In this document: piece by piece, positions 4,505-62,896 of the stretch
Layout: every line of letters starts with the position of its first letter
Numbering within the stretch: the stretch's first letter is position 1
Position numbers and translations under genes: made by a program
Assembly: GCA_026387665.1 (NCBI GenBank)
Contig: JAPLLG010000009.1
Location: 62,001 to 126,000 of the forward strand
Source: Nitrospirota bacterium
Lineage (GTDB): Bacteria > Nitrospirota > Nitrospiria > Nitrospirales > Nitrospiraceae
DNA: 64,000 nucleotides
Reading direction: 5' to 3'
The notes under the pieces: generated by a model
Databases searched by the model: none
Told to the model about the DNA's origin: nothing
What the model saw: only the letters and a program-made list of their open reading frames with translations

Positions 4505-5362
4505 ATGCCCCCACCGACCGCGCAACAGATCATCGAAGCCCAACGTCAGGATTGGAATCGTGTGGCCGGTGGCTGGGAGAAGTGGGACCACTTCTTCGAG
4601 CAGAACCTGGCCTGCCTCAATCACCGGCTCGTCGCGGATGCGCGGCTGCGAGCCGGTCAGCATGTGCTCGATCTCGGGTCCGGCACCGGCTATCCGGCCC
4701 TGCTCGCCGCGCAGGTCGTCGGACCGCAAGGCAGCGTGATCGGCATCGACGTGGCCGAATCCATGCTGGCTGTCGCAGGCCGCAAAGCGAAAACGCTCGG
4801 TCTGGCAAACGTGACCTTTCACGCCGGAGATGTGACGACGCTTCCGTTCGGAGCCGGTTCGTTCGACGCGGTGACCAGCCGCTTCTGTTTGATGTTTCTC
4901 CCTCACATTCCCAAGACCGCCGCAGAGATTGCGCGGGTCCTGAAACCGGGCGGCTGGCTCGCCGCAGCAGTCTGGTCCGCGCCGGACAAAAATCCCTCCC
5001 TCCTCCTGCCCATGAACGTGATCAAGCAGTTCCTCGACCTGCCGCAGCCGGACCAGAGCGCCCCAGGCATTTTCCGGCTCGCCAAGCCTGGCGATCTCGC
5101 CGGTATGCTGCAACAGGCCGGCCTGACAGACCTCATGGAGCAGGAGTTTCTCGCCGAATGGTCCTACCCTTCGGCGGAGGACTACTATCGAAGCCTGATG
5201 GACATTGCCGCGCCAATCCAGAATCTCCTGGCGCAACTGACGCCGCAGCAACAGCGAGAAGCCGAGCAGAAGATCGTTGCCGCAGCCGAGGAATATCGGA
5301 GAGGCACAGCCCTGGCATTCCCCTTCGCAGCCCGCATGGTCGCGGCACGCAAACCTCTGTGA
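4505..5362 (+). CDS. Class I SAM-dependent methyltransferase
   Basis: Protein of 285 residues. ATG 4505 follows AAGGAGG by seven bases; the frame continues upstream but without a better start. The Rossmann methyltransferase core is clear: motif I VLDLGSGTGYPALLAA near residue 55, an acidic end of strand 2 (VIGIDVAESML), motif II/III region HAGDVTTLPFGAGSFDAV, and post-motif VLKPGGWLAAAVW. This is the UbiE/Methyltransf_11 type. The C-terminal third probably forms the substrate site and gives no clue to the acceptor. It lies upstream of, and separate from, the arsenic methylation genes, so an arsenic role is not implied. Confidence 0.85.
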   Translation: MPPPTAQQIIEAQRQDWNRVAGGWEKWDHFFEQNLACLNHRLVADARLRAGQHVLDLGSGTGYPALLAAQVVGPQGSVIGIDVAESMLAVAGRKAKTLGLANVTFHAGDVTTLPFGAGSFDAVTSRFCLMFLPHIPKTAAEIARVLKPGGWLAAAVWSAPDKNPSLLLPMNVIKQFLDLPQPDQSAPGIFRLAKPGDLAGMLQQAGLTDLMEQEFLAEWSYPSAEDYYRSLMDIAAPIQNLLAQLTPQQQREAEQKIVAAAEEYRRGTALAFPFAARMVAARKPL

Positions 5363-5385
5363 ACAACTCCGGCCCGAAACTATGG

Positions 5386-5391
5386 TAGGCT
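5386..5391 (+). promoter_or_regulatory. Extended -10 box five bases before a GTG start
   Basis: TGG precedes TAGGCT, which is followed by five bases and then GTG 5397. The same 11-mer (TGGTAGGCTGC) with the same spacing stands before rlmN at 25943. No convincing -35 is seen here. Confidence 0.5.
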
Positions 5392-5396
5392 GCGTT

Positions 5397-5897
5397 GTGA
5401 CTCGCGCATTCCCCCTATTCAGCGGTTCGCTAGTCCGGCGCTGGCTCCTGGCAGGATTGATCGCCTGTCTGTCCTCTCAGACTGCCTGGGCCGATGTGCC
5501 GCGCCTGCCTGCGACTCTGTGGCAGAACGCGCCCGAACAGGCGCCCCTCCCGCGGAAGCCCTGGATCATCCACGACCGGGCCATCGCCTTGAACCTCCCA
5601 TCGCTGCTGACCCTGAAAGATGCGGCGGCCAGGCCACACACTCCCCTCTTCATCGAACTCTTCAATGGTCTCCGCTATGAGTTGGCGATCGACTCCACCA
5701 TCTCCCGCAGCAACGACTCAGCCGTGGTGCGAGGGCTCCTCAAACACAGCGATCACGGGGACTTTATTTTCTATATCAATGGCACCGTGATGGCCGCCAC
5801 CATCCACGTCGGGCATCGCCTCTTCAAAGTCGAACATGTGGCCAACGGCCGCCACCGATTATTGGAACTGAATCCCGCGAAACTCCCTCCGGACTAG
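5397..5897 (+). CDS. Secreted protein resembling a metalloprotease propeptide
   Basis: Start GTG 5397 is preferred over ATG 5382 because 5382 lies before the -10-like box, while 5397 sits five bases after it, as in rlmN. This gives 166 residues with a typical signal peptide (basic start, hydrophobic LLAGLIACL, cleavage after AWA). The mature part, about 130 residues, is beta-rich and resembles the propeptide-like domain found before bacterial M12-type zinc metallopeptidases (the GDFIFYINGTVMAATIHVG region followed by LLELNPAKLPPD). The catalytic domain with its HExxH motif is absent and not encoded nearby. It may be an inhibitor-like or binding domain that stands alone. It ends 15 bases before the next gene. 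Confidence 0.6.
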   Translation: MTRAFPLFSGSLVRRWLLAGLIACLSSQTAWADVPRLPATLWQNAPEQAPLPRKPWIIHDRAIALNLPSLLTLKDAAARPHTPLFIELFNGLRYELAIDSTISRSNDSAVVRGLLKHSDHGDFIFYINGTVMAATIHVGHRLFKVEHVANGRHRLLELNPAKLPPD

Positions 5898-5912
5898 CCA
5901 CGGCGAAAGCCC

Positions 5913-6296
5913 ATGATGTACCCCCTCCTAGCCAATCTGACCCTCATTGTTCACCTGGCATTCGTGGCCTTCGTCCTGTTCGGCGGGCTGCTCGTGCTGA
6001 AGTGGCGCTGGATCGCCTGGCTGCACCTGCCTGCTGCAACCTGGGGCGCGGTCGTCGAATTCACCGGCTGGATCTGTCCCCTCACGCCGCTGGAACATTG
6101 GCTGCGCGCGCAGGCAGGAGAAGCCTCCTCTCGTTCCGACTCCCTGGTACAATATCTCCTGCCGGCGCTCTATCCCTCCGGCCTCACGAGGGAGATTCAG
6201 ATTCTACTCGGGATGCTGGTCTTGGCGGTGAACCTCGCGATCTATGGCTGGCTCTGGCACCGCACCAGCGTGAAGACAACGCGAGGCGCGAAGTAG
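5913..6296 (+). CDS. DUF2784 membrane protein
   Basis: Protein of 127 residues with four hydrophobic segments (about residues 5-28, 35-55 as a re-entrant or short segment, 80-100 and 103-120). The pattern of an aromatic W-rich second segment (WIAWLHLPAATWGAVVEFTGWICPLTPLE) and a following LEHWLR is typical of the DUF2784 family of small inner-membrane proteins, whose function is not known. It begins 15 bases after the preceding secreted protein, suggesting one transcript, and is followed by a 110-base gap before arsM. Confidence 0.8.
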   Translation: MMYPLLANLTLIVHLAFVAFVLFGGLLVLKWRWIAWLHLPAATWGAVVEFTGWICPLTPLEHWLRAQAGEASSRSDSLVQYLLPALYPSGLTREIQILLGMLVLAVNLAIYGWLWHRTSVKTTRGAK

Positions 6297-56411: not shown

Positions 56412-56531
56412 GTCCGCACGCAGCCGTTCTGCATCTGCTGAGCTCTCCGCTTTAGGCGTACCCATCCATCGCTCACATTGCCAGCCCGTCATCGCCGTGG
56501 GGTCGTCCGTTACATTCAAAGAGGTGCATCC

Positions 56532-57593
56532 TTGTTTCTATCCGTATGGTCAACAGTCCGGGCATTCCTGCGCGACGCCGCAGGGAGCCTCTATCACATT
56601 CTTATCGTCGCCATGAGCGCCGGTATTGCGCTCTTGCTGCCGGCAGGGGCCAAACAGTTCTTGTCGTTCTGGTCACGCGTCGAGCATGACAAGCTCTCGC
56701 TCATCGCCGTAGAAATGACGGTGGCGATCCTCCTGATCGTCTGTCTCAACTACGTCCATCGCAGCAAGCGGGACCGGGCCCTCGCCACCGTAGCGACCGG
56801 CGCAGGCCTCGTCTCATTCTTCCCGCGCCGCACGAGGGGGGCGCAGCAACATATCGAGCAACTCAAAGACGAGCAGGGCACGGGCCGGACCATCTCGGTC
56901 ATCGGGTCCAGCGGCCACAGCACCTTTGTGGATCAAGTGGGCGGCCTGTCGTCGGTACTCGACAAATGCCTGGGAGCCAGAATCATGCTGGTGAATCCCT
57001 ACAGCCAGGAAGCGAGCGCACGCATCCAGGCGGTCAACCATCCCGAGTTCACACTGGACACATTCCGGAAAGAAGTCCGGCACAGCATCCAGCTCCTCAA
57101 GCGGCTGAAGGCCATAGGGAAGGACGTCAAACTCAAGCTTTATGCGGATTCCCCGTTGATCAAACTGGTGATCCTGGGCGACTACCTGTGGCTCCAGCAT
57201 TACCATGCCGATCTGGATATCCAGACCATGCCCGAATATGTCCTGCGGCATAACCGCAAGGACCATGGCCTCTATACCCTCTACGCCCACTACTTCGTGC
57301 AGCGATGGGAGAGCGCCGAGTGTCCGGAATATGATTTCGAGACGGACGAGCTGGTCTATCGTACTCGCGCCGGCAACGAGATCCGACGCGAGCAGTTTGA
57401 GATCGAAGCGGCGAACGAAGAAGTTGGAGCCCTGATGGAATCACGAGCCATCACCGTTACTCGGCCGAATCCGAGACCGATAGCCCGTAACGTAAATACA
57501 GAAGCAGAGCCATTCCACCGAATGCTCAAAATGGCCGTCCAGCAAGGCCGCAGGCGAGTCGAAACCGGAGGCATACCCTCAGGGGTACGTTGA
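56532..57593 (+). CDS. Two-helix membrane protein with unknown C-terminal domain
   Basis: Protein of 353 residues from TTG 56532, seven bases after GAGGTG. Two membrane helices (ILIVAMSAGIALLLPAG and IAVEMTVAILLIVCLNYV) are followed by a cytoplasmic domain with GRTISVIGSSGHSTFVD, ARIMLVNPYSQEASARI, KLKLYADSPLIKLVILGDYLWLQHYHADLDIQTMPEYVLRHN. The fold resembles the phospholipase-D-like sensing domains (DUF5919 group), a tentative match. The final 24 residues (from RMLKMAV) are encoded by a repeat element, so the natural C-terminus may have been replaced. Confidence 0.6.
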   Translation: MFLSVWSTVRAFLRDAAGSLYHILIVAMSAGIALLLPAGAKQFLSFWSRVEHDKLSLIAVEMTVAILLIVCLNYVHRSKRDRALATVATGAGLVSFFPRRTRGAQQHIEQLKDEQGTGRTISVIGSSGHSTFVDQVGGLSSVLDKCLGARIMLVNPYSQEASARIQAVNHPEFTLDTFRKEVRHSIQLLKRLKAIGKDVKLKLYADSPLIKLVILGDYLWLQHYHADLDIQTMPEYVLRHNRKDHGLYTLYAHYFVQRWESAECPEYDFETDELVYRTRAGNEIRREQFEIEAANEEVGALMESRAITVTRPNPRPIARNVNTEAEPFHRMLKMAVQQGRRRVETGGIPSGVR

Positions 57594-59426: not shown

Positions 59427-60308
59427 ATGAATAGACTATCGTGCGATTCCATTGACGCCACCGATCAGGCGCCTGAAGCTGAGAAATACCAGTGGCAGGG
59501 AGTGCTCCCGTTCCTCAGCATCCACCTGATGTGTCTGTGGATCATTCAGACCGGCATCAGCTGGAAGTTGGTGGCCCTGGCCGTTACCAGCTACTACCTG
59601 CGAATGTTCGCCATCACGGCAGGATACCACCGCTACTTTTCGCACCGTTCATACAAAACCAGCCGGGCCTTCCAGTTTCTCCTGGCGTTTCTCGCCATGA
59701 CATCTGCGCAAAAGGGCGTGCTCTGGTGGGCCGCACACCATCGGCACCACCATAAGCACTCGGATCAGGAAAAAGATCGCCACTCCCCCCTGCAAAGGGG
59801 ATTCTGGTTTTCCCATATTGGATGGCTCTTATCCGAGAATTATGTGCAGACCGATCTCCGTCTCGTGCGAGACTTGGCGAAATATCCCGAGCTGCGCTTC
59901 CTCAACCAGTTTCACGTCATTCCGCCCCTCCTCTATGCGGGGCTGATGTATGCGGTGGGAGGCTTCCCGGGACTGATCTGGGGCTTCTTCATTTCCACCA
60001 CCGTCCTCTACCATTGCACCTTCTTCATCAACTCCCTGACGCACATCGTCGGTCGGGTTCGCTACAACTCCCGCGATGGCAGCAAGAACAGTTTCATCCT
60101 GGCGGTGCTCTGTTGCGGGGAAGGCTGGCATAACAACCACCATTACTACCAATCGTCGGTCAATCAGGGATGGTTCTGGTGGGAAGTGGACTTCTCCTAC
60201 TATATCTTGACCGTGCTCTCCTGGTTCGGAATCGTGTGGGACCTGAGAACTCCTCCTCCCCACATCAAAGCCAAGATCCTCGCGTCCGGAAACGCCCAAG
60301 CCCTGTAG
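59427..60308 (+). CDS. Membrane acyl-CoA (delta-9 type) fatty acid desaturase
   Basis: Protein of 293 residues with four membrane helices and all three histidine boxes of the stearoyl-CoA desaturase family: HRYFSHRSYK near residue 68, HHRHHHKHSD near residue 110, and HNNHH near residue 235. Conserved WFS/ DGSKNSF-like context also supports it. It puts a cis double bond into a saturated acyl chain using a di-iron site and oxygen. A TAGAAT box at 59359 is a possible -10. It is followed by a Cfa-type enzyme, 120 bases later. Confidence 0.93.
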   Translation: MNRLSCDSIDATDQAPEAEKYQWQGVLPFLSIHLMCLWIIQTGISWKLVALAVTSYYLRMFAITAGYHRYFSHRSYKTSRAFQFLLAFLAMTSAQKGVLWWAAHHRHHHKHSDQEKDRHSPLQRGFWFSHIGWLLSENYVQTDLRLVRDLAKYPELRFLNQFHVIPPLLYAGLMYAVGGFPGLIWGFFISTTVLYHCTFFINSLTHIVGRVRYNSRDGSKNSFILAVLCCGEGWHNNHHYYQSSVNQGWFWWEVDFSYYILTVLSWFGIVWDLRTPPPHIKAKILASGNAQAL

Positions 60309-60428
60309 CAAGACTCAACGGAGCGATCACTCCTTATGGTGTCTTCTTCCGTCGTAGCCCTCACTTCACACAATCCATTCGCCGTGCGTTACACGGAGCA
60401 TACCACCCCCTAGACCAAGGAAAGGCGG

Positions 60429-61547
60429 TTGCCCCCTATGGATCCACAACACGTTGTTCACGGGCTGCTCGAAAGAGCGCAGGTACATGTGAACGGGTCT
60501 CAACCGGGGGATATCCACGTCCACAACGACCGATTCTACGACCGGATCCTGACCGAGGGCTCGCTCGGGCTCGGCGAGTCCTACATGGAAGGCTGGTGGG
60601 ACGCCAATCAGCTGGACGAATTCTTTTTTCGATTTCATACGGCCGGACTCGACAAGGCCGTGCGCGACAAGCGGCTCATGCTGAACATGCTCCAGGCCCG
60701 CCTGTTCAACATGCAGAATCAGCGCCGCTCCACACGAGTCGCGCAACAACACTACGACTTGAACAACGAGTTTTACGAACGCATGCTGGGCCCCCACATG
60801 CAATATACCTGCGCCTATTGGAAGCGGGCGCAGAACCTGGCGGAGGCGCAGGAGCACAAATTAGATTTGATCTGCCGGAAGCTGCAACTCAAGCAAGGCG
60901 AGCGAGTCCTGGAGCTGGGGTGCGGATGGGGCGGCTTCGCGCATTATGCGGCTGCCAACTATGGCTGCTCGGTGGTCGCCTACAATATTTCCGAGCAGCA
61001 AGTGGCCTTTGCGCGGCGCCGATGCGCCGGACTTCCCGTGGAGATCAGGCTCAGCGACTATCGTAACGCGAGCGGGGAGTTCGACAAGGTCGCCGCCATC
61101 GGCATTTGCGAACATGTGGGATTCAAAAATTACCGGACCCTCATGGAGGTGGCCCACCGGACCGTCAAACCGCACGGCCTCTTTCTCCTCCATAGCATCG
61201 GCAACAATATCTCAGCCACCACCGGCGACCCCTGGTTCGACAAATACATTTTCCCCGGCGGCATGCTGCCCTCCGTGGCGCAACTGAGCGCGGCGATGGA
61301 AGGGCTCTTTGTCCTGGAGGACTGGCATAATTTCGGGACCGACTACGATCGCACCCTCCTGGCATGGCAGGAGAATGTCGACCGGCAACGGGGACAGTTG
61401 CCCCCCGCCTTCGACGAGCGCTTCACCCGCATGTGGCGCTACTATCTGCTGTCCCTCGCGGGAGCCTTCCGCGCCCGCACCATCCACCTCTGGCAAATCG
61501 TGATGTCGAAGCGGGGCCTGCTGGGCGGCTACGAATCGGTGCGGTAA
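60429..61547 (+). CDS. cfa: Cyclopropane-fatty-acyl-phospholipid synthase type methyltransferase
   Basis: Protein of 372 residues from TTG 60429, placed seven bases after AAGGA; ATG 60438 also possible. SAM motif I is LELGCGWGGFAHYAA near residue 162. The Cfa signatures ICEHVGFKNYRTLMEVAHRTVKPHG, LLHSIGNN and DWHNFGTDYDRTLLAW, followed by FTRMWRYYLLSLAGAFRARTIHLWQIV, match E. coli Cfa closely. It methylates the double bond of lipid acyl chains. Whether the product is a cyclopropane or a methyl/methylene group cannot be told from sequence. The TAA stop overlaps the next ATG. Confidence 0.9.
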   Translation: MPPMDPQHVVHGLLERAQVHVNGSQPGDIHVHNDRFYDRILTEGSLGLGESYMEGWWDANQLDEFFFRFHTAGLDKAVRDKRLMLNMLQARLFNMQNQRRSTRVAQQHYDLNNEFYERMLGPHMQYTCAYWKRAQNLAEAQEHKLDLICRKLQLKQGERVLELGCGWGGFAHYAAANYGCSVVAYNISEQQVAFARRRCAGLPVEIRLSDYRNASGEFDKVAAIGICEHVGFKNYRTLMEVAHRTVKPHGLFLLHSIGNNISATTGDPWFDKYIFPGGMLPSVAQLSAAMEGLFVLEDWHNFGTDYDRTLLAWQENVDRQRGQLPPAFDERFTRMWRYYLLSLAGAFRARTIHLWQIVMSKRGLLGGYESVR

Positions 61548-62896
61548 TGGCCATGATCTTGTCTGAAGAGCATGCCCGCAAACGCGACGCCTTGATCAAG
61601 ACCCTTCGTGCGTCAGCCACGGCCGGCCCCCTCGCGCTCGAGAAATCGACGTCCAATCTGTTCCGGCAACGGATTCAGGAGCCTCGGCAGAAGCTGGATC
61701 TGCGCCACTTCAATCACGTGATCCACGTCAACGAGCACGAACGGTACGCGGACGTCGAAGGGATGACGACCTACGAAGACCTCGTTCGTGCCACGCTGCC
61801 CTTCCAGCTGATGCCCGCCGTCGTGCCCCAACTGAAATCGATCACCATCGGCGGAGCGACGGCGGGAATCGGCATTGAATCCTCCTCGTTCAAGTACGGC
61901 TTCGTCCATGAAACGATCCTGGCCATCGACGTCCTCCTGCCGGACGGAACGGTTGCAGTCGCCACCCAAGAGAACGAGCATCGCGATTTATTTTTCGGTT
62001 TTGCCAATTCGTATGGCACGCTGGGCTATGCGCTGAAAGTGAAAGTGGCGCTCGTGCCCGTCAAGAAATTCGTCACACTCAAACACGAGCGCCATTCAGA
62101 TTTAGAAACCTATTTCCGCGCGCTGGGGCAGGTCTGCCAGGACAGGCAGGTGGATTTCGTCGACGGCACGATGTTCCATGGGCAGGAGCTCTATATCACG
62201 ACCGGGACATTCACCGACCAGGCCGAAGGGCTCAGCGATTACACCTATCGGCACATCTACTACCGGTCGATCCCCCGCAAAAGGATCGACTACCTCACGA
62301 CGCACGACTATCTGTGGCGCTGGGACACCGATTGGTTCTGGTGCTCGAAACATTTCCTCGCGCAGCAGCCGCTGGTGCGCTGGCTCTGGGGCAGGAAGCG
62401 TCTCAACTCCACGGTCTATTGGAAGCTGCGCAAGCGATTCAACGATTCACCCCGCGCGCAACTGGTGGCCAGAGTTCTGGGCGGGCGACAGGAAGCGGTG
62501 ATTCAGGACGTGGAAATTCCTCTTGAGCATGCGCCGGCATTCGCGCGGTTCTTCAACAAAGAAATCGGCATCACGCCCGTATGGATCTGCCCGGTCGCGG
62601 CCTACGATCCAGCGGTCTCCTATCCGTTGTATCCCATGAGTCCACGAACCCTGTATGTCAATTTCGGGTTCTGGGATTCCGTCAGGAGCGATCACGAGGA
62701 GGGTTACTTCAATAAGAAAATAGAAGCGAAGGTCCGGGAGCTCGGGGGCAAGAAATCTCTCTACTCGAATGCCTTTTATTCGCGCGAAACATTTTGGCAG
62801 CTCTACGACGAAACCACCTACCGCAGGCTCAAGACCCGCTACGATCCGACCTGCCAGCTTAAAGATCTCTACGAGAAATGCGTCCTCGCAAAGTGA
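61547..62896 (+). CDS. DHCR24-like FAD-binding oxidoreductase
   Basis: Protein of 449 residues; ATG 61547 overlaps the cfa stop by one base (TAATG). An FAD-binding (PCMH) domain occupies residues 55-200: YADVEGMTTYEDLVRATLP, PQLKSITIGGATAGIGIESSSFKYG and AIDVLLPDGTVAVAT. The C-terminal half (YLWRWDTDWFWCSKHFLAQ, YPLYPMSPRTLYVNFGFWDSV) matches the DHCR24/delta-24 sterol reductase-like family. In actinobacteria a similar oxidoreductase (TmsA/BfaA) pairs with a Cfa-like enzyme to make 10-methyl acyl chains; the same pairing is seen here. Confidence 0.85.
   Translation: MAMILSEEHARKRDALIKTLRASATAGPLALEKSTSNLFRQRIQEPRQKLDLRHFNHVIHVNEHERYADVEGMTTYEDLVRATLPFQLMPAVVPQLKSITIGGATAGIGIESSSFKYGFVHETILAIDVLLPDGTVAVATQENEHRDLFFGFANSYGTLGYALKVKVALVPVKKFVTLKHERHSDLETYFRALGQVCQDRQVDFVDGTMFHGQELYITTGTFTDQAEGLSDYTYRHIYYRSIPRKRIDYLTTHDYLWRWDTDWFWCSKHFLAQQPLVRWLWGRKRLNSTVYWKLRKRFNDSPRAQLVARVLGGRQEAVIQDVEIPLEHAPAFARFFNKEIGITPVWICPVAAYDPAVSYPLYPMSPRTLYVNFGFWDSVRSDHEEGYFNKKIEAKVRELGGKKSLYSNAFYSRETFWQLYDETTYRRLKTRYDPTCQLKDLYEKCVLAK

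Follow-up and report, generated by a model that had tools for sequence, protein, structure and literature searches.

A Nitrospirales gene cluster that likely forms methyl-branched fatty acids pairs a BfaA-family reductase with a methyltransferase of the E. coli Cfa type

The closest described system is bfaAB of Actinomycetota, which forms 10-methyl stearic (tuberculostearic) acid (PMC5660069, PMC7791843). The methyltransferase BfaB, of the CMAS family, makes a 10-methylene intermediate, and the flavin adenine dinucleotide (FAD) protein BfaA reduces it with NADPH (PMC7791843). In Pseudomonadota, tmpBA, a methyltransferase gene followed by a flavoprotein gene, is linked to 10-methylene palmitic acid (PMC7791843). 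UfaM of Rhodobacter sphaeroides, also Cfa-like, methylates a cis-delta-11 chain without cyclopropanation, and its product is desaturated and oxygenated by UfaD and UfaO, not reduced (PMC7380195). With these systems a cluster of three genes was compared, encoding a desaturase, a methyltransferase related to the cyclopropane synthase Cfa of E. coli (cfa) and an FAD oxidoreductase (fad). It is located in a stretch of 64,000 nucleotides of a Nitrospirota bacterium related to nitrite oxidisers (contig JAPLLG010000009.1, positions 62,001 to 126,000), which in its full length is called the window here. The comparisons indicate that the cluster is likely a methyl-branching operon of the BfaA type whose methyltransferase has been exchanged for one of the E. 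coli type. Its features, in window positions, are:

59427 to 60308, plus strand: membrane fatty acid desaturase, 293 amino acids (PF00487, E=4.6e-17), with three histidine boxes
60438 to 61547, plus strand: E. coli-type Cfa, an S-adenosylmethionine (SAM) methyltransferase, 369 amino acids from ATG 60438 (PF02353, E=1.6e-78); the alternative start TTG 60429 gives 372 amino acids
61107 to 61112, plus strand: codons for Cys224 and Glu225 of this Cfa, corresponding to Phe238 (here Cys) and the catalytic, bicarbonate-binding Glu239 of E. coli Cfa
61547 to 62896, plus strand: BfaA-family FAD oxidoreductase, 449 amino acids from 61547 or 447 amino acids from ATG 61553 (PF01565, E=9e-15)

All three open reading frames are intact and lie on the plus strand where an earlier annotation made from the nucleotide sequence alone, referred to as the sequence-only reading, had placed them. 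The histidine boxes of the desaturase are HRYFSH (residue 68), HHRHH (residue 104) and HNNHH (residue 235). The cluster shares with bfaAB the reductase family and the arrangement of a CMAS methyltransferase and an FAD reductase in tightly spaced genes. It differs by the reversed gene order, cfa preceding fad, by the linked desaturase gene, and by the replacement of BfaB with an E. coli-type Cfa, the two types being 30-36% identical.

By sequence comparison, the FAD protein belongs to the family of BfaA, the characterised 10-methylene reductase. It is about 45-53% identical to actinobacterial homologues and 48-57% identical to CMAS-adjacent proteins in Actinomycetota, Pseudomonadota and Acidobacteriota. 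A scan of named genomes confirmed at least 588 BfaA relatives, and the best 80 loci of these were analysed for gene arrangement. Among them are loci from Amycolatopsis, Actinomadura, Prauserella and many Beta- and Gammaproteobacteria (48-57% identity), and in 63 of the 80 a CMAS gene lies within the stretch examined, in nearly all cases next to fad. The copy of Tsukamurella (46% identity, with 98% of the length aligned) is followed by a SAM methyltransferase gene, and the pair is surrounded by recR, ybaB, amidase, SRPBCC-family and DNA polymerase III genes, which is the neighbourhood in the published bfaAB map (PMC5660069). In a tree of the FAD proteins, those from Nitrospirales are placed on the side of actinobacterial BfaA, all within one family. 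A first AlphaFold model calculated from 12 close sequences was poor (predicted local distance difference test, pLDDT, of 51); with 50 family members in the alignment, a VAO/PCMH fold was predicted at a pLDDT of 90. Among solved folds, cytokinin dehydrogenases and DprE1 come nearest to this model, with 12-17% identity. The label DHCR24-like, given in the sequence-only reading, was assessed at the level of fold and family (VAO/PCMH, FAD_binding_4); the nearest characterised relative is BfaA. Some records that bear the names Magasanikbacteria, Woesearchaeota, Patescibacteria and Bordetella parapertussis (L041, L045, L077 and L072) also contain BfaA relatives; errors of binning or naming are likely there.

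The second line of evidence is inheritance. Across 236 genomes of Nitrospirales, cfa genes of the E. coli type were counted at an identity of at least 72% and fad genes as close homologs. Each of the two was detected in 26 genomes, and 25 genomes harbor both. The single genes, one of each, occur in G131, at a contig end, and in G150, where fad lacks its first 67 codons and has no adjoining cfa. In all 25 complete cases cfa adjoins fad; the two either overlap by one base or are separated by a few bases. Chance does not explain the order desaturase-cfa-fad, which is found in 23 of the 236 genomes. The desaturase gene accompanies 23 of the 25 pairs; its ortholog is present without the pair in five genomes, and the pair without the desaturase in two. 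In G141, the desaturase gene is directly followed by a C-terminal remnant of fad, as if cfa and the greater part of fad had been lost by a natural deletion. This pattern suggests that cfa and fad form a functional pair, with the desaturase as a frequent companion. Decayed remnants of the operon are thus seen at two places, L031:1502-1764 (the fad tail of G141) and L134:7380-8513 (the 5'-truncated fad of G150 without cfa).

The methyltransferase is of a different origin than BfaB. Among solved structures, E. coli Cfa (6bqc, E=1.9e-126) is the best match, with which it shares about 52% identity over the full length, the N-terminal lipid domain and the bicarbonate ligands. It differs from the E. 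coli enzyme by its link to a reductase gene and by three replacements, Phe238 by Cys, Met237 by Ile and Gly116 by Ala (E. coli numbering is used throughout for these positions). In a tree of CMAS proteins, it clusters with E. coli-type Cfas adjoining BfaA-type genes from Nitrospirota, Acidobacteriota, a metagenome-assembled genome (MAG) assigned to Myxococcota, and others. BfaB and the CMAS partners of Beta- and Gammaproteobacteria constitute two further, distant lineages; the Cfa of the window falls together with that of E. coli and is not orthologous to BfaB, which has its own clade. The simplest reading of the trees would be an exchange of partners, one reductase family having been combined with at least three methyltransferase lineages.

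Taken together, membership of the BfaA family and the co-occurrence of cfa and fad support the pathway reading well, and it is quite probable that the cluster makes saturated mid-chain methyl-branched fatty acids of the membrane, in situ on phospholipids. In such a pathway, the desaturase would make or supplement a cis-monoenoic acyl chain. Cfa would then methylate the double bond, with SAM as the donor, and release an exo-methylene (or methyl-alkene) chain instead of a cyclopropane, and the BfaA-family flavoprotein would reduce the methylene chain to the methyl branch with NADPH. The sequences themselves show the family of the FAD protein, the strict joint inheritance of cfa and fad and the place of this Cfa among reductase-linked ones without Phe238, whereas the chemistry of both enzymes in this organism, the role of the desaturase, the branch position and a steering of the product by residue 238 are inferred. 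The methylation and reduction route proposed by the sequence-only reading is thus supported in its BfaAB-like outline, by the family of the FAD protein and by 25 joint occurrences of cfa and fad against one single occurrence of each. Its suggestion that the cyclopropane label of the Cfa gene is wrong or incomplete is probably correct as well. The gene belongs to a clade of reductase-linked Cfas without Phe238.

This residue emerged when 364 alignment columns were ranked by how well they separate E. coli-type Cfas with a linked reductase from those without. Residue 238, which immediately precedes Glu239, came first and residue 237 second. Phe238 is absent from all 33 E. coli-type Cfas with an adjacent reductase gene (27 Cys, 4 Met, 2 Thr) and present in 37 of the 41 without one (Fisher p of 1e-16, kinship ignored). 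Restricted to the 31 Cfas adjacent to BfaA-type genes, the residues are 27 Cys, two Thr and two Met. Phe238 is also found in the solved cyclopropane synthases, the Cfas of E. coli, A. aeolicus and L. acidophilus, and CmaA1. Among 53 BfaA-adjacent CMAS proteins of other than the E. coli type, position 238 is occupied by Leu (28), Thr (24) or His (1); in a smaller set of such types, Thr was seen in the BfaB rows and Leu in those of Beta- and Gammaproteobacteria. In 34 genomes selected for their E. coli-type Cfas, a BfaA-family protein (at least 49% identity) was detected only in G236 (Methylohalomonas) and G340, and in both its gene adjoins another CMAS type, not the E. coli-type Cfa. Ala at position 116 was considered as a marker and rejected; all 31 E. 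coli-type Cfas adjacent to BfaA-type genes have it, but so do seven unlinked ones.

Absence of Phe238 was also observed in the presence of another reductase. Two Cfas with Met238 and without BfaA (L213, L214; from the phylum of a Solibacter MAG) are followed by a geranylgeranyl-reductase-like gene. The reductase gene at L232 (4523-6653 with Cfa) matches TIGR02032 with E=9e-37; the copy at L231/L214 (L231:6960-9192 with Cfa) is 68-71% identical and split over two frames. A sister Cfa (L211) has Phe238 and no such reductase in its locus, and the clade of these three is supported by 100/100. L232 and L231 each contain a pair resembling tmpBA in which the Cfa has another origin. The cluster of the window resembles tmpBA in having the methyltransferase gene before the flavoprotein gene and in the proposed chemistry, but TmpA is geranylgeranyl-reductase-like and unrelated to BfaA, whereas the neighbour of the window Cfa is a PF01565 protein. 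The only match to TIGR02032 in the window genome is weak and located on another contig (C2).

Several observations weigh against the formation of methyl branches by this cluster. The window Cfa reaches 555 bits with PRK11705, the curated NCBIfam model of E. coli Cfa, above the cut-off of 400, and 425 bits with 6bqc. Cys139 and Ile268, which we take to be further residues of the bicarbonate site of E. coli Cfa, are kept in the window protein along with Glu239, His266 and Tyr317. The latter three are bicarbonate ligands of the E. coli enzyme (PMC11387697). Such features are those expected if the Cfa were an ordinary cyclopropane synthase and the operon yielded cyclopropane acids, the FAD enzyme acting elsewhere by opening, oxidising or reducing another lipid. 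In addition, 17 of the 80 best BfaA-type loci show no CMAS gene in the stretch examined, some being cut by contig ends, so that the BfaA family may have other substrates; in the three genomes of this kind that were tested (G242, G243, G244), a CMAS gene is present elsewhere, the only one found in G242 and in G244 having Leu238. The residue 238 marker has weak points of its own. Four unlinked E. coli-type Cfas also lack Phe238 (L137, L157, L204, L210), although the genome of L210 (Cys238) does have a BfaA-type gene, located beside another CMAS, and outside the E. coli type, no more than 15 of the 33 CMAS rows that lack an adjacent reductase have Phe238. Moreover, the marker was noticed after the fact and has few independent origins, namely a clade with Cys or Thr, the Met pair linked to a TmpA-like reductase, possibly the Met pair of L077 and L109, and two lineages of other than the E. 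coli type.

Nevertheless, cyclopropane formation is rather unlikely. It does not account for the strict pairing of Cfa with a BfaA-family reductase, nor for a separate clade with Cys, Thr or Met where the solved cyclopropane synthases have Phe. A high PRK11705 score and an intact bicarbonate site do not separate Cfa chemistry from BfaB-like chemistry; the site residues, considered as a discriminator, were rejected because the ligands are kept in nearly all CMAS rows with adjacent reductase, including those of the BfaB type. Cyclopropanes are nearly missing in the published Nitrospira profiles considered, with 19:0 cyclo reported only in two enrichments (PMC3660363, Table 1), the profiled strains including no bearer of the cluster. 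Still less probable is a pathway of the furan fatty acid type, in which methylation is followed by desaturation and oxygenation and not by reduction. It would be in accordance with UfaM, to which the window Cfa was compared by description, being a Cfa homolog that leaves a methylated alkene (PMC7380195). However, the FAD protein is of the PF01565/BfaA type and not phytoene-desaturase-like as UfaD (PMC7380195), and no UfaO-like gene was noticed beside fad. A separate cluster of amine-oxidase-like, DUF1365-like and CMAS genes, present in many Nitrospirales genomes, fits furan chemistry better. At four such loci (L123, L125, L129, L138), a CMAS of the EMIEAVG type adjoins amine-oxidase-like and DUF1365-like frames, named by eye, which may constitute a cluster for furan or other modified fatty acids.

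The sequence-only reading had further assigned to the cluster the 11-methyl-hexadecanoic acid of Nitrospira. This part was not supported. Genome G063, a single contig of 4,589,485 bp, is taken here to be that of N. moscoviensis NSP M-1. It carries a full [NiFe] hydrogenase, as expected for this species (PMC12342949). In N. moscoviensis, 16:0 11-methyl amounts to more than 20% (PMC3660363, Table 3). The acid also exceeds 20% in N. bockiana and N. calida, reaches 0.8% in N. marina and 2.3% in one culture of Ecomares 2.1, and is not among the markers of N. defluvii (PMC3660363). Neither an E. coli-type Cfa nor a BfaA-type gene was found in G063. Its two PF01565 matches, in a very long frame and in a frame of 595 amino acids, presumably represent a glycolate-oxidase-like protein and MurB. 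Provided that G063 represents N. moscoviensis, the cluster cannot be the source of the acid in this species, a strain with the lipid and without the cluster being the very case named beforehand as speaking against the assignment. Two candidate explanations were rejected: a geranylgeranyl reductase in G063, for which only one weak match was obtained (E=7e-11), and a single gene set shared by all Nitrospira with the 11-methyl lipid, because both cfa and fad are missing there. Better candidates for the acid in G063 may be its two CMAS genes of other than the E. coli type, one that has Cys at position 238 and is preceded by a PF00487 desaturase gene and a small CMAS-like methyltransferase gene (L121:4974-8329, the CMAS gene itself at 4974-6272), and one with Val (L120:4981-6291). 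For comparison, G025 (4,317,083 bp), presumably N. defluvii, gave just one match to CMAS; SDR-like and amine-oxidase/DUF1365-like frames (named by eye) lie nearby.

As N. moscoviensis may use these other CMAS genes, the case is one against a shared origin of the acid and not against its formation in the organism of the window. That the cluster makes exactly 11-methyl-hexadecanoic acid nevertheless appears doubtful. The type of pathway is right, 16:1 cis11 is a main acid of Nitrospira (PMC3660363), and UfaM places its methyl group on the near carbon, C11 of a delta-11 chain (PMC7380195). BfaB, in contrast, places the methylene group on the far carbon, 10 from delta-9 and 8 from delta-7 (PMC7791843), and by this rule 8- or 12-methyl acids are expected from the known 16:1 cis7 and cis11 acids of Nitrospira. 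For an 11-methyl product, the enzyme would have to choose the carbon as UfaM does when acting on a delta-11 bond, or start from a delta-10 substrate. The enzymes of the window could thus give 8-, 12- or 11-methyl-16:0. The cluster is carried by G054 (4,084,817 bp) and G056 (4,509,223 bp), which we take to be N. japonica and strain KM1, respectively. A literature search, in which N. japonica was looked up, found no published lipid profile of a cluster-bearing strain.

Two details of the window remain to be described. The TAATG overlap of one base between cfa and fad, pointed out in the sequence-only reading, is real in the window but not generally conserved; it is present in three of ten relatives compared and absent in the other seven (TAACGGCCATG, TAGACCACATG, TAACCCACATG and similar). 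Because all ten share an ATG a few bases downstream, fad probably starts at ATG 61553 (MILSEEH) rather than at the overlapping ATG 61547. Upstream of the cluster, an open reading frame of 371 amino acids (56478-57593) gave no hit in either Pfam or NCBIfam at E 0.001. A search of the window genome with PF02461 (ammonia monooxygenase) gave no sign of comammox by this test.

A broader scenario is put forward tentatively, with somewhat less than even confidence. E. coli-type cyclopropane synthases may have been converted more than once to acyl-methylene synthases, with Phe238 lost in every lineage gaining a methylene reductase, be it of the BfaA or the geranylgeranyl-reductase type. The residue or its neighbourhood would decide between ring closure and methylene formation, and Nitrospirales and their acidobacterial counterparts would hold an unrecorded third route to mid-chain methyl branching, recruited separately from bfaAB and tmpBA. 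If true, several automatic cyclopropane synthase labels would be wrong in Nitrospirales, Acidobacteriota and other phyla, and one alignment column would flag likely methylene-forming enzymes among E. coli-type Cfas. The genes for 11-methyl-16:0 of N. moscoviensis would have to be sought elsewhere in its genome, apart from this type of cluster. The choice between ring closure and methylene in Cfa-family enzymes, an old question, would become testable by exchanging one or two residues of the E. coli enzyme.

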